The notes under the pieces: model-generated
What the model saw: only the letters and a program-made list of their open reading frames with translations
What the model was told of the DNA's origin: nothing
Databases searched by the model: none
Source of the DNA: a virus
IMG/VR virus record: IMGVR_UViG_3300030329_001671
Coordinates: 24,487-88,486 of that record
DNA: 64,000 bases
Direction: 5' to 3' (one strand)
Part shown: positions 27,363-45,920 of the stretch, one piece after another
Layout: each line of letters opens with the position of its first letter
Position numbering within the stretch: position 1 is the stretch's first letter
Position numbers and translations under genes: made by a program

Positions 27363-28090
27363 TGTCTAAGTATTTACTGTCCAAACTATTTCCTAATTTC
27401 GTAAAAAAGACTCAAACTCAACATTTGGCTAAAGGTCCCTTTGGTGAAGGTTTGGACGCTGCGGAATTGGATAAAGCTAGAGTTTACCTTAAGCCCGGTG
27501 AACAAGCTCCTGAGGGAGCGCAGGTACAAACGGGTCCTAAGGGTGGACAATACTACGACGACATGGGTGGTGGAGCCGTCCCTACAGATGAAGCTCAACC
27601 ATACCCGGCTGAAGCGTATGACCAAGCTATGGATGCTGAAGTAGATGCTTTAAGTGGAATTCCACAAGAAACGCTTTCGCCTCCCGACGTATCCGAAGCT
27701 ACATTTGATGGACAAGGTAATATACAGTTGCCGGGTAGTGACCCCTATCCTATTAGCGAACTTATTGGTTCAGACACGGAAGCTGTAAATGCCCTTGGGG
27801 AACGATATCAACAAGAAGGTGGAGCTAATCCGGCCGAATTACTTTCTGGTTATGACGGACCTCTGACTCAGGATGGTATACACGAGTACCTAAGCGATAT
27901 AGTTCAATATGATGACGCCTTCGTATCTGACAATGATTATCATAATGCTATAGATTTTGCTAGCTGGGTTGGTGAACAATCAGGATTATCCGAAACTCAA
28001 AAAATGGTTAAGATGATGCAGAAACACAATATAGATAACAAAAGGCGTGATCCAATAGTATTGTCCAACAAGGGCGGTACACATAGGTAA
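27362..28090 (+). CDS. Virion-associated protein with shared linker module
   Basis: 242 residues; ATG overlaps the XkdF-like stop. Residues ~37-67 carry RVYLKPGEQAPEG...GPKGGQYYD, nearly the same module as in the 19570 and 22206 proteins. The remainder is acidic, Gly/Pro/Gln-rich and not recognised; no enzyme motif is visible. The short hydrophobic/basic N-terminus (SKYLLSKLFPNFVKK) could be amphipathic. Probably a packaged protein. Confidence 0.65.
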   Translation: MSKYLLSKLFPNFVKKTQTQHLAKGPFGEGLDAAELDKARVYLKPGEQAPEGAQVQTGPKGGQYYDDMGGGAVPTDEAQPYPAEAYDQAMDAEVDALSGIPQETLSPPDVSEATFDGQGNIQLPGSDPYPISELIGSDTEAVNALGERYQQEGGANPAELLSGYDGPLTQDGIHEYLSDIVQYDDAFVSDNDYHNAIDFASWVGEQSGLSETQKMVKMMQKHNIDNKRRDPIVLSNKGGTHR

Positions 28091-36021: not shown

Positions 36022-37146
36022 ATGAAACTACGTAACTTTTTAGGGGCTGTGAAAGACTTGATTCTGATGCCCTTTAAGAAAACTCCTGTTAGAAAATTAG
36101 GAACACTTCTACTTTGGACACCAAAAAAGATTGGATGGGTTCTTAGGAAAATACTCCATGGTATTGTAATAGGTCCTAGTTACGTATTTAGAGCGATTAT
36201 AAAATCCCCTAAGAAAGCGTTTAGAAAAGCTATGATTATTAGAGATTGGATGTTGGAAAAGATAGATTACCTAGAAGCGGAGTCGGCCAAGTGGAAGCGT
36301 ACATTCCAGATTATAAAGTCTCCATACAGTTTACTACTAAAGATGGGATTCTCACCCCAGTATGCGATTGGTTTAATAGCTGTAGGTACGACTGCTACTA
36401 CTGGTGTTGTGGCAAACGAAGCTATGAAGCCACCGTCTTTCGCAGCAGGAGACCCCGGCATTTATAATGCACCGACAGACTCACCTATATTTAGTGCTAA
36501 AGAATTTAATACGTTGCGCCTAGATTTGGGTACAACTCCTATTGGGTTAGTTGAAATCTCAGATATTACTGTAGGTACGGCATATAGTAACTCTGCTTTG
36601 CCTCAAGGTGAAACAAAGCCTGTAATCGTTGGTGGTTTGCCGGCGGTTTCCGATCCTGCCTTTGCGGAAACGTTCCTTGAGGTTGGACACATGACTGTGG
36701 AGAAGTGGAGGTGTGACCAACTGTTGCTAACTAATATTGAGGCTCATGATCTCATAGTCAGGGATAATGCTTCAGATGGGCAATCAATCTCTGCAACTGC
36801 GGGTACTCCAAGAGACCGGGGTATTTCTGGTGGTAACAGAGCAGCGGATATGTACACAAGCGGTGGCTACTATGACCAAGTGAAAATCACAGCAGCAACC
36901 ACAAACGTAAACGGAAAGATCGACAGACTAGTTCTAAACAACCTCTACACGAAAGGTGGGGCTTGTGTTCTCGACAGAATCAAGGCGGGTACACTGGAAA
37001 TAATTTTGAATGAGGTTGGACTTGGTAATGGTTTTGCGACTAAGGAATTCCAAATAGCTACTAGCGTTGTATACAAAAACTTCACAAACGAAGACAACGT
37101 AGAAGTTTCTATTGCATCCGCTCCTGCCGCAGCGGGACCAAGCTAG
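36022..37146 (+). CDS. Hypothetical protein, amphipathic N-terminus and beta-rich C-terminus
   Basis: 374 residues, AAGGGG before ATG. The first ~130 residues are strongly basic and hydrophobic (several KTPVRKLG, SPKKAFRKAM stretches, then IGLIAVGTTATTGVVA, a possible membrane segment); the C-terminal ~220 residues are beta-rich (VKITAATTNVNGKIDRLVLNN) like a beta-helix. Could be a membrane-contacting virion or host-envelope protein. No family recognised. Confidence 0.65.
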   Translation: MKLRNFLGAVKDLILMPFKKTPVRKLGTLLLWTPKKIGWVLRKILHGIVIGPSYVFRAIIKSPKKAFRKAMIIRDWMLEKIDYLEAESAKWKRTFQIIKSPYSLLLKMGFSPQYAIGLIAVGTTATTGVVANEAMKPPSFAAGDPGIYNAPTDSPIFSAKEFNTLRLDLGTTPIGLVEISDITVGTAYSNSALPQGETKPVIVGGLPAVSDPAFAETFLEVGHMTVEKWRCDQLLLTNIEAHDLIVRDNASDGQSISATAGTPRDRGISGGNRAADMYTSGGYYDQVKITAATTNVNGKIDRLVLNNLYTKGGACVLDRIKAGTLEIILNEVGLGNGFATKEFQIATSVVYKNFTNEDNVEVSIASAPAAAGPS

Positions 37147-39029: not shown

Positions 39030-39235
39030 AGAAAGTACAGTCACCGTGTAATAATAAGCCTGTTTTACGATGGAACATAAGTATTTTACGATAAATATAT
39101 TTCAAAATATTTCAAATCAGTTCAAATTAGTGTTTTCATGGCCATATTTTCGGCTGAATGTCAAATCCAAAACTATCTTATATAATTATATGGTGAGTTC
39201 AAATCATAAGGTTTTGCCCCTAGGGAAACATAAAA

Positions 39236-39527
39236 AGGGAATTGGGAATCCGGGGAATCGGGAATTCGGGGAAACACTGGGGAATCGGCAATTACGGGGA
39301 ATCGGGAATGCAGGGAATCGGGAATGTGTGGGCAATGCGGGAATACGCAGGGGAATAGGGGAATACGGGAATGTACAGGCAATGTAGGGAATACGGGAAT
39401 ATATAGGGAATCTGGGAATTGGGGGAATTAGAACATACGTTCTAAAGGAATTCGTAAATTAGGGAATTAGGGAATGTAGGAATTCGTAAATTAAATTAAG
39501 GAATTCGACGACTTATAGGGAATTGCC
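39236..39527 (+). repeat. GGGAAT short-repeat cluster
   Basis: I count 21 exact GGGAAT hexamers in about 290 bases on the + strand, with variants GGCAAT and GGAATT between them. Spacing is irregular (7-20 bases), so it is not a simple tandem array. G-runs every ~10-14 bases. Three reverse copies (ATTCCC) lie at 42285-42310. Candidate iteron-like origin or protein-loading site; no function proven. Confidence 0.8.
39429..39444. promoter_or_regulatory. Operator-like palindrome TAGAACAtacgTTCTA
   Basis: TAGAACATACGTTCTA, copy 1 of 5 of the TAGAACA-NN-TGTTCTA palindrome (GAAC-N4-GTTC core, like Gram-positive LexA boxes). Lies inside the GGGAAT cluster. Confidence 0.6.
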
Positions 39528-40850: not shown

Positions 40851-41114
40851 ATGACGACTAAACAACGATATGAAAAAATGTTTGTGACGGTTCCTGAGTC
40901 TGCATTAGACGACCCTAACCATGAATCCGCAATAGAGGACATGAATGGGTACATCGAGCGTATGGGGGGAACCGCACACGCTCCTGATGGTATGGACTAC
41001 TCTTGGACTGTTCCCGCTCACTGGACCTTTAGGTTCTACGAGCGATTCAAGTCCTTTGGTCTCAATGCTAGAGTACTTCCCGGTTCGCATTGGTTTGGAA
41101 TGTTAGAAAATTAG
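40851..41114 (+). CDS. Hypothetical protein
   Basis: 87 residues from ATG 40851, with AAAGGA upstream separated from ATG by one copy of the A-rich motif, the same layout as the 42042 gene. The frame extends in-phase to ATG 40824, which would add nine residues encoded by the motif. Contains FYERFKSFGLNARVLPGSHWF. Not recognised. Confidence 0.6.
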   Translation: MTTKQRYEKMFVTVPESALDDPNHESAIEDMNGYIERMGGTAHAPDGMDYSWTVPAHWTFRFYERFKSFGLNARVLPGSHWFGMLEN

Positions 41115-41117
41115 GGG

Positions 41118-41146
41118 TTGACAAGCATAAAAGTTTATGCTATAAT
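41118..41146 (+). promoter_or_regulatory. Perfect sigma70 promoter
   Basis: TTGACA-17-TATAAT, exact consensus. No gene follows; it appears to drive the small structured RNA at 41153. Confidence 0.9.
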
Positions 41147-41152
41147 ATAGTC

Positions 41153-41230
41153 AAGCTAGTGAGGCGGGCATGGTCAGACATTCCCTTATGAAGATAAGAT
41201 GACACGCTGAAACCGCCCGCCCCTAGCAGA
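41153..41230 (+). ncRNA. Candidate small structured RNA
   Basis: Starts about 7 bases after a perfect promoter. GCTAG (41155) pairs with CTAGC (41223-41227) and GGCGGGC (41163-41169) with GCCCGCC (41215-41221), a closing stem of 12 bp; inside are GTCA/TGAC and CTTAT/ATAAG with a GAAG loop. No open frame of note. Lacks a T-tract, so its 3' end is uncertain. Family unknown. Confidence 0.6.
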
Positions 41231-41254
41231 AAAAATATTAGAAAAAGATAGGTG

Positions 41255-41283
41255 TTGACATGTAGTAAAAAGTATGCTACAAT
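41255..41283 (+). promoter_or_regulatory. Sigma70 promoter for large ncRNA
   Basis: TTGACA-17-TACAAT, just after a motif copy at 41231. Confidence 0.85.
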
Positions 41284-41289
41284 ATATGT

Positions 41290-41710
41290 ATGAGGTAAGG
41301 AACTGAGAATTCCTAATGAACAGACTAACTGCGGGTTAGCGCAAGCCTTAAAAAAGCATACCTGTTCAGACTTATCAGTACCTCTAGGAGCGGGAGTGAG
41401 GATACACGCAACAGTCTTAGTTACTTAGTAAAGTATTCAACTCCAATGCTCCGACACTCGGAGTGGAGACTGAAGGGGTCATTACCCGCCACCTGTTTCA
41501 AACGCAGAGTCCAGTCTCAACTGAGGGGAGCGAAAATAGAATATTGAACCATGCAAATGTCCCTCATTCATATGGCAGCATCACAAGTAGTGAGCAATGA
41601 AGAATCCTAGGATAACTTCTCAGCCGATGTCTTGTAATATGCAGACCATCCCTGAACTGCACACATCCCTCTGTTGAATCATATTCTAATATCGCTCCCC
41701 TCTTTTATTT
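41290..41710 (+). ncRNA. Large structured noncoding RNA candidate (~415 nt)
   Basis: No coding frame with a ribosome site; own promoter; ends at a strong terminator-like helix. Helices visible: GAGGTA/TACCTC and GAACAG/CTGTTC closing a 5' domain (~41292-41388) that holds AGGAA/TTCCT and CTAAC/GTTAG hairpins; GAGACTG/CAGTCTC around GGGG/CCCC in the middle; and a 3' domain closed by GAGGGGAGCGA (41523-41533) with TCGCTCCCCTC (41692-41702), extended by TAGAATAT/ATATTCTA, then TTTTATTT. This density of long-range pairing argues for a folded functional RNA. I recognise no tmRNA, RNase P, 6S or group I intron signature. Confidence 0.7.
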
Positions 41711-41716
41711 AAAGAC

Positions 41717-41745
41717 TTGACAGCCTCTTTGTACTATGCTAAAAT
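41717..41745 (+). promoter_or_regulatory. Sigma70 promoter
   Basis: TTGACA-17-TAAAAT, 23 bases before the 41768 gene. Confidence 0.85.
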
Positions 41746-41767
41746 ATATGTACAAGGAGCAAATGAC

Positions 41768-42025
41768 ATGAACTTAACAAAAGATGGATACCTAGTCGGA
41801 CAGAGCGGTGTGCTTGTTACATGCCCTATCTGTCTCGGTGACATGTGCGGTTGCTACGATGACCTTGAGGTCAAGGGATACCGCATCTGTAAGGGTTGCG
41901 CTAGTGAGTACGAAGCGCATTGGGGTCGCCCACCGTCTAAGGGAACGATTAGCAAAGCTATCAAAGCATTAGTCGCTCAGGGGTTGTGGGACAGAAAAAC
42001 CCACAGCGTCCCTAAAGCGGCGTAA
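41768..42025 (+). CDS. Small zinc-finger protein
   Basis: 85 residues from ATG 41768 (AAGGAG upstream). CPIC...CGC...CKGC cysteines form a likely zinc site, followed by a helical region (GTISKAIKALVAQGLW) that could be a winged-helix-like DNA binder. Possible transcription-related early protein. Confidence 0.65.
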   Translation: MNLTKDGYLVGQSGVLVTCPICLGDMCGCYDDLEVKGYRICKGCASEYEAHWGRPPSKGTISKAIKALVAQGLWDRKTHSVPKAA

Positions 42026-42251: not shown

Positions 42252-42333
42252 TATGAGAAGGGAAACCATTTGCCTATTCCCTCCCTCATTCCCTCCTATT
42301 CCCTCTAGGCAATAAGCCAATATAGAGGGGAAT

Positions 42334-42371
42334 CCCCTAGCAGTTCAGTCATTTCTGCTAGGGGATTTTTT
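42334..42371 (+). terminator. Strong intrinsic terminator
   Basis: CCCCTAGCAG (42334-42343) pairs perfectly with CTGCTAGGGG (42355-42364), then ATTTTTT. Confidence 0.92.
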
Positions 42372-42639
42372 ATTTCCCCGGCCTTTCTCCAGTAGTTGGA
42401 GGGAAAAATTTAGAAAAAATCTTCAGGAATCACTGGACGAGGCCTACTGGATCTACCAATTTCCGTTTATCAATATACATTCCGCCCAGTCTTCAGCTGG
42501 AATTCTGGTCTGGTGCAGCTGGATCTGGGAAAAATTTAGAAAAATCCCCCCGGCGGATGTAGTCGGGATGCTTCCGGCTCTGATCCCAGCATCCTAGCTC
42601 CCAGCCGGGAATTGCCGGGTCTGGCTAAAATTTAGAAAT

Positions 42640-42668
42640 TTGACGACTCCCCGGTTTTCTGCTATACT
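42640..42668 (+). promoter_or_regulatory. Sigma70 promoter
   Basis: TTGACG-17-TATACT, directly after a motif copy (42627-42638). Confidence 0.75.
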
Positions 42669-42686
42669 TTCCGGCCGGAGGAAAAA

Positions 42687-44207: not shown

Positions 44208-44336
44208 ATGAATTGGAAAAATTTGAAAAAAGCTTGGCAGGAGTCAGGCGACGAGCGTTGGATACAGCACCCGAAGGGTCATCGAGCGCAGAAGAAAGCC
44301 GAGAGGCGCAACCGCAAAGAGGGTAGGCTAAGGTAG
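44208..44336 (+). CDS. Small basic protein overlapping tRNA
   Basis: 42 residues, AAGGAG before ATG 44208. Trp- and Lys/Arg-rich (MNWKNLKKAW...AQKKAERRNRKEGRLR). Its last six codons and stop lie inside the tRNA gene. Could be real or a leader frame. Confidence 0.45.
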   Translation: MNWKNLKKAWQESGDERWIQHPKGHRAQKKAERRNRKEGRLR

Positions 44337-44389
44337 CCAACAGGTCTCCAAAACCTGAGGAGTGAGTTCGATTCTTACACCCTCTGCCA
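44318..44389 (+). tRNA. tRNA-Trp (anticodon CCA)
   Basis: Acceptor arms AGAGGGT (44318) and ACCCTCT pair over 7 bp; anticodon stem CAGGT/ACCTG with loop CTCCAAA gives anticodon CCA; T arm GTGAG-TTCGATT-CTTAC; discriminator G and encoded CCA end at 44389. The D arm is reduced (GGCT-AAGGT-AGCC), giving 72 nt in all. The only tRNA I found. Confidence 0.88.
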
Positions 44390-45891: not shown

Positions 45892-45920
45892 TTGACGGTC
45901 GTTCTGCCCTATGCTATAAT
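45892..45920 (+). promoter_or_regulatory. Sigma70 promoter
   Basis: TTGACG-17-TATAAT, two bases after a motif copy (45874-45889). Confidence 0.88.

Follow-up and report, generated by a model that had tools for sequence, protein, structure and literature searches.

A candidate large structured RNA with a conserved three-way junction in an uncultured tailed phage

Genes, promoters and other features of the locus

The window analysed here is a stretch of 64,000 nucleotides from the 88,486-bp IMG/VR virus record IMGVR_UViG_3300030329_001671, the genome of a tailed phage that encodes a DNA polymerase, a primase, a DnaB-like helicase, a terminase, a portal and an SU10-type capsid protein. No near relative was found among 50,697 sequenced phage records, either by DNA (first 25 kb) or by capsid protein; there are 481 capsid relatives in viral contigs, and it is from the metagenome contigs where relatives occur that we infer the phage to be marine. 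No credible gene occupies the roughly 650 bp that separate the stop of one ORF at 41114 from the start of the next at 41768; the following features were located there, listed together with the gene that follows:

41118-41146, plus strand: P1, upstream tandem promoter, TTGACA-17-TATAAT, 12/12 consensus match
41155-41227, plus strand: compact GC-rich hairpin element behind P1, GCUAG..GGCGGGC / GCCCGCC..CUAGC, fold z = -4.7
41255-41283, plus strand: P2, TTGACA-17-TACAAT, 11/12 consensus match, extended -10 TG
41292-41384, plus strand: predicted domain 1 of the large RNA, GAGGUA/UACCUC closing helix, inner 7-bp helix 41317-41323/41362-41368, z only -1.5
41387-41452, plus strand: predicted domain 2, nested hairpin GGAGC..GCUCC, z = -2.2
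41466-41518, plus strand: conserved three-way junction, 53 nt, homologue at L035:6545-6606 / L087:10151-10212
41523-41702, plus strand: predicted domain 3, closed by an 11-bp plus 8-bp long-range stem (0/400 shuffles reach 19 bp)
41701-41710, plus strand: T-tract TCTTTTATTT after the long-range stem, possible termination site
41717-41745, plus strand: P3, promoter of the next gene, 11/12 consensus match
41768-42025, plus strand: next gene, an 85-aa ORF

The promoters were scored by sigma-70 consensus only. By that measure P1, P2 and P3 are all strong sigma-70-type promoters with an extended -10, and beyond the consensus they have TATGCTANAATATA in common with one another and with promoters at 45892 and 48060; the five (41118, 41255, 41717, 45892 and 48060) cluster in the 40-50 kb accessory region. 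The predicted reading order is from P1 into the hairpin element, from P2 (expected start of transcription about 41290) into the large RNA, and from P3, which begins 15 nt past the long-range stem, into the 85-aa ORF.

The hairpin element folds lower than any of 200 shuffles. A homologue was looked for and none was found, and since no terminator of its own was seen, the P1 transcript probably runs on into the large RNA; the element may be either a separate small RNA or the 5' domain of a longer transcript.

Several other observations concern the surroundings. ARAGORN places a tRNA-Trp at 44318-44389. A 374-aa gene (36022-37146) is about 70-90% identical across phages with capsids only about 52-73% identical, and because its identity exceeds that of the capsids across the same phages, the comparison suggests that it moves between them. 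Short GGGAAT-type repeats at 39204-39387, by appearance a tandem repeat tract, produce a low-complexity G-N-R-rich ORF. A motif near AAAATTTAGAAAAA recurs at about 40840, 42030, 42408, 42531 and 42627, at gene starts and in gaps, and is possibly a translation or regulatory element of this phage. A 435-nt non-coding gap at 42252-42686 (z = -4.9 against shuffles) holds several hairpins, one of them followed by a T-tract.

Folding of the large RNA and its conserved junction

The initial annotation described a stretch of about 415 nt without a coding frame, driven by what is called P2 here and closed at its 3' end by the two-part long-range stem, and in all of this it was borne out. The sole plus-strand ORF of 40 aa or more lying wholly inside 41290-41710 is a 45-aa frame with a GTG start (41463-41600), which is not a credible gene, and about 415 nt separate P2 from P3. 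The stem was found base for base: 41523-41533 forms 11 perfect Watson-Crick pairs with 41692-41702 and, across a 3x3 internal loop from these, 41537-41544 forms 8 more with 41681-41688, a total of 19 bp against a best of 15 bp in 400 dinucleotide shuffles. The terminator that had also been claimed stands in part. There is a T-tract after the stem, and termination at 41701-41710 is plausible from the sequence; a terminator scan, which requires a short loop, called no canonical intrinsic terminator there.

As a whole the large RNA has a minimum free energy of -119.3 kcal/mol (z = -3.0; 1 of 100 shuffles is equally low), the 5' part folding more weakly (41290-41386, z = -1.5; 41383-41460, z = -2.2). 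Taken in 140-nt tiles across a 12-kb fold scan, the region is unexceptional for this phage. Domains 1, 2 and 3 are proposed from folding, the IMG/VR search having returned no homologue for any of them.

The 53-nt junction between domains 2 and 3 is conserved. It consists of a closing helix (41466-41472/41512-41518), a GGGG hairpin from 41475 and the hairpin CUGU[UUCAAAC]GCAG (41493-41507). Homologues were hunted in IMG/VR loci around neighbouring proteins, and one other lineage matched (L033-L035, the same as L085-L087, which are longer stretches of the same contigs). It belongs to the same phage group, with a capsid 73% and an api92-like gene 68% identical, and it too has a tRNA-Trp (L087:5093-5164). 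The match spans 36 nt at 86% identity (E 3e-4 in 657 kb), with a shared core of GGGGUC..CCCGCMAMCUGUUUCAAACGCAGAG, outside of which the sequence diverges. Both inner hairpins are retained in sequence between the two lineages, and the closing helix is GAGACUG/CAGUCUC in the window versus GUAAGGUUC/GAACCUUAC in L087; with the two helices set in register, both bases differ in three of five pairs and pairing is retained. The 9-bp helix of L087 is reached in none of 20,000 flank shuffles, the 7-bp helix of the window in 291 of 20,000.

Fixed sequence enclosed by a re-paired helix is what one sees in a structural RNA domain, and we read these two sequences as evidence for one. The covariation analysis that had been suggested for the RNA covered this central domain in the two lineages, and its outcome is mixed: the helix is re-paired, and the counts are weak, 55 of 500 shuffles doing as well in the two-sequence covariation count. 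Covariation is thin because there are only two independent lineages in about 150 phage records and loci. Among these, a covariance model of the junction (R1, with 54 positions; 71.9 bits for the window and 77.5 for the other lineage, both built into the model) found no third lineage, and scanning all viral contigs for exact patterns yielded only the lineage already known. Four contig matches to the junction pattern (L206-L209) were rejected, only the inner part of R1 being matched, as was a weak R1 match at window 27718-27755 on the minus strand with its counterpart in G007, probably chance in coding sequence.

The second lineage also bears on how the RNA may work. L085 and L086 are nearly identical to L087 in the RNA up to the 3' hairpin, which is the breakpoint, and then continue into different ORFs, so that the RNA looks like a self-contained unit, separate from the downstream gene. 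In L087 it is squeezed between two genes and no promoter is obvious for it, and in L087/L035 it is directly upstream of an ORF, a CCCC/GGGG hairpin adjoining the start codon; in L087 it may be cut from a longer transcript or serve as a leader.

Known RNA families and alternative readings

The large RNA had been described as having no recognisable signature, and Rfam 15 is in agreement: its covariance models gave no credible match on the large RNA at the gathering threshold (whole window), and none to GOLLD, ROOL, a tmRNA, an intron, a ribozyme or a riboswitch across 41100-41760 at E <= 1. The lone match at E <= 1 in the window, to a trypanosomatid snoRNA, was set aside, as it lies on the wrong strand and scores 19.7 bits where the cut-off is 45. 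ARAGORN and Rfam call no tRNA or tmRNA on the large RNA, the tRNA-Trp being the sole call, and DNA similarity to phages and plasmids is limited to a 37-nt promoter match in three staphylococcal phage records and to chance matches. With its own promoter (by consensus only) and no ORF, the RNA falls in the broad class of structured phage non-coding RNAs; our verdict is that it is a new orphan, outside the known giant-RNA families.

A first alternative is that the RNA acts in cis, as a riboswitch-like leader or attenuator that controls the next gene by way of its ribosome-binding site or the T-tract. Riboswitches commonly contain multi-domain junctions with U-turn loops, and the T-tract after the stem and the start-codon hairpin of L087/L035 are what such a leader might show. 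The short strings CCCGCCAC(C)UGU and CCCCGCAA(A)CUGU resemble what we take to be the conserved CCCGCCACUGU of the cobalamin riboswitch core, a lead only; the bases concerned are predicted to pair otherwise in the large RNA, and a search of L035 at E <= 2 gave no Rfam riboswitch match, cobalamin included. Against a cis role stand the exchange of downstream genes between L085/L086 and L087, the lack of any Rfam riboswitch family at E <= 1 and the 11/12 promoter of the next ORF, which can do without the large RNA as a leader. We regard this alternative as unlikely.

It is distinctly unlikely that the region is a well-folding non-coding spacer of decayed genes and regulatory DNA in which the junction is a conserved island, for instance a remnant of a tRNA anticodon arm. 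The 5' domains are only slightly better folded than shuffles and homologues are few; moreover, the 15-mer CTGTTTCAAACGCAG is also the anticodon arm of tRNA-Leu(CAA)-like genes (read as tRNA by eye) in two unrelated phages, L135 and L179. Against a spacer stand a long-range stem above all shuffles, a junction helix kept with different bases and a strong promoter exactly at the 5' edge.

The same hairpin is a lead toward tRNA mimicry. It has 4 bp and a 7-nt U-turn-type loop, UUCAAAC, that fits the T-loop consensus UUCRANY and, just as well, an anticodon loop in which U33 precedes the anticodon CAA. An RNA imitating the anticodon arm (CAA, Leu) or the T-arm might sequester a host tRNA-binding enzyme or a defence anticodon nuclease, and the identical arms in the tRNA-like genes of other phages, the short stem and loop set within a junction and the nearby tRNA-Trp are all in keeping with this. 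On the other hand, the large RNA is without a tRNA fold, acceptor stem or CCA end, none of it is called as tRNA or tmRNA, and its loop is closed by a U-G pair rather than the G53-C61 of T-arms. The scan for CTGTTTCAAACGCAG returned at least about 100 distinct contexts; among the matches listed the junction occurs only in the known lineage, alongside two tRNA anticodon arms. The matches are mostly chance, and the identical arms may be coincidental. Such mimicry is highly doubtful as the explanation. Two further ideas formed by eye, mimicry of a CRISPR repeat and kissing of the UUCAAAC loop with UUGAA in domain 3, were dropped when the second lineage gave no support.

The initial annotation had compared the large RNA in style to GOLLD and ROOL, the latter of which assembles into homo-oligomeric nanocages. 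GOLLD is a large, structured RNA of unknown function encoded by phages and prophages, found in marine samples and often near tRNA genes, and ROOL is a multi-domain phage and prophage RNA near tRNA islands (PMC12286853). The resemblance goes as far as phage origin, structure in several domains, a marine setting and a tRNA gene about 2.6 kb downstream, whereas many GOLLD RNAs are longer than 800 nt and their 3' region is universally conserved, and no common helix plan with ROOL was seen. That a divergent giant RNA of this kind was missed by the covariance models is scarcely credible, given no match at gathering or permissive thresholds, a length of about 415 nt, no shared conserved region or recognisable domain plan, and a conserved core that is the 53-nt junction.

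Proposed role and the RNAs of related phages

The large RNA is probably real and previously undescribed, with one domain that has evolutionary support. Whether it is a stand-alone, modular, promoter-driven phage RNA that acts in trans, the reading we prefer, is in our estimate evenly balanced. We infer its expression and timing, as well as its trans action and its role as decoy or scaffold. The locus would be in an accessory, probably early, region of a marine tailed phage, where host sigma-70 RNA polymerase would transcribe the large RNA from its strong promoter alongside the small hairpin RNA. The 53-nt junction, with its U-turn-type and GGGG hairpins, would be the conserved core; acting as a decoy or scaffold, it would expose its loop and the conserved linker CCCGCMAM to some protein or RNA of the host. 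The domains on either side, among them the 3' long-range stem, would be lineage-specific and exchangeable and would stabilise the transcript. Trans action by mimicry has a precedent in phage PhiTE, whose escape mutants make a decoy RNA against ToxIN that mimics ToxI repeats (PMC3475682), although no repeat array was noticed in the large RNA.

Relatives of the phage carry other structured RNAs. L291 and L294 (capsid 76% identical) have an accessory region with two non-coding units that have strong promoters and terminator-like hairpins, and a third RNA is related to one of these:

L291, 2499-2752 of the reverse complement, minus strand: RNA-A, about 250 nt, TTGACA..TATAAT promoter, long terminator-like hairpin
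L291, 4029-4248 of the reverse complement, minus strand: RNA-B, 12/12 promoter, strong terminator, the same in L294
L037:3551-3644: RNA sharing the modules of RNA-B

The sigma-70-driven non-coding RNA with a strong terminator in L291/L294, a more distant relative, was counted in favour of the stand-alone reading. One module shared by RNA-B and L037 is UUCCUGU with a hairpin GGGUG[GGUUUAUAAG]CAUCC (GAAUG/CAUUC in L037), the other CACUAAGCGA..UAGUACAGGAAG enclosed by a stem, with an ACAGGAA able to pair with UUCCUGU. These modules are in opposite order in RNA-B and L037, and each arrangement is closed by an outer helix of its own, as if one pseudoknotted core had been circularly permuted. RNA-B and the L037 RNA have no Rfam match and no sequence homology to the large RNA of the window. 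A weak HOLDH match in L037, scoring 11.4 bits where the cut-off is 319, is not meaningful, and a family search of 41 records found none; strings in the relatives' RNAs resemble ACUAAGCAUGUAGUACC, which we take to be a string of E. coli tmRNA, and a tmRNA identity was rejected, there being no tmRNA score; and a weak match between RNA-B and intergenic DNA of T4-like phages (E 0.2) was taken as chance.

Taken together with the large RNA, they suggest that the accessory regions of these phages keep a changing set of structured RNAs. A bolder version, quite improbable as a whole, is that widespread uncultured marine phages have a dedicated early locus for modular, fast-evolving trans RNAs (the 53-nt junction and permuted pseudoknot families), for example tRNA-mimicking decoys against translation-linked defences. 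If the large RNA is real, it would represent an RNA family not described before, from a phage group whose capsid has hundreds of relatives in viral contigs and none among the sequenced phage records. It would join the few large phage RNAs with open functions, and its conserved 53-nt core is compact enough to be handy in pull-downs or structural studies.
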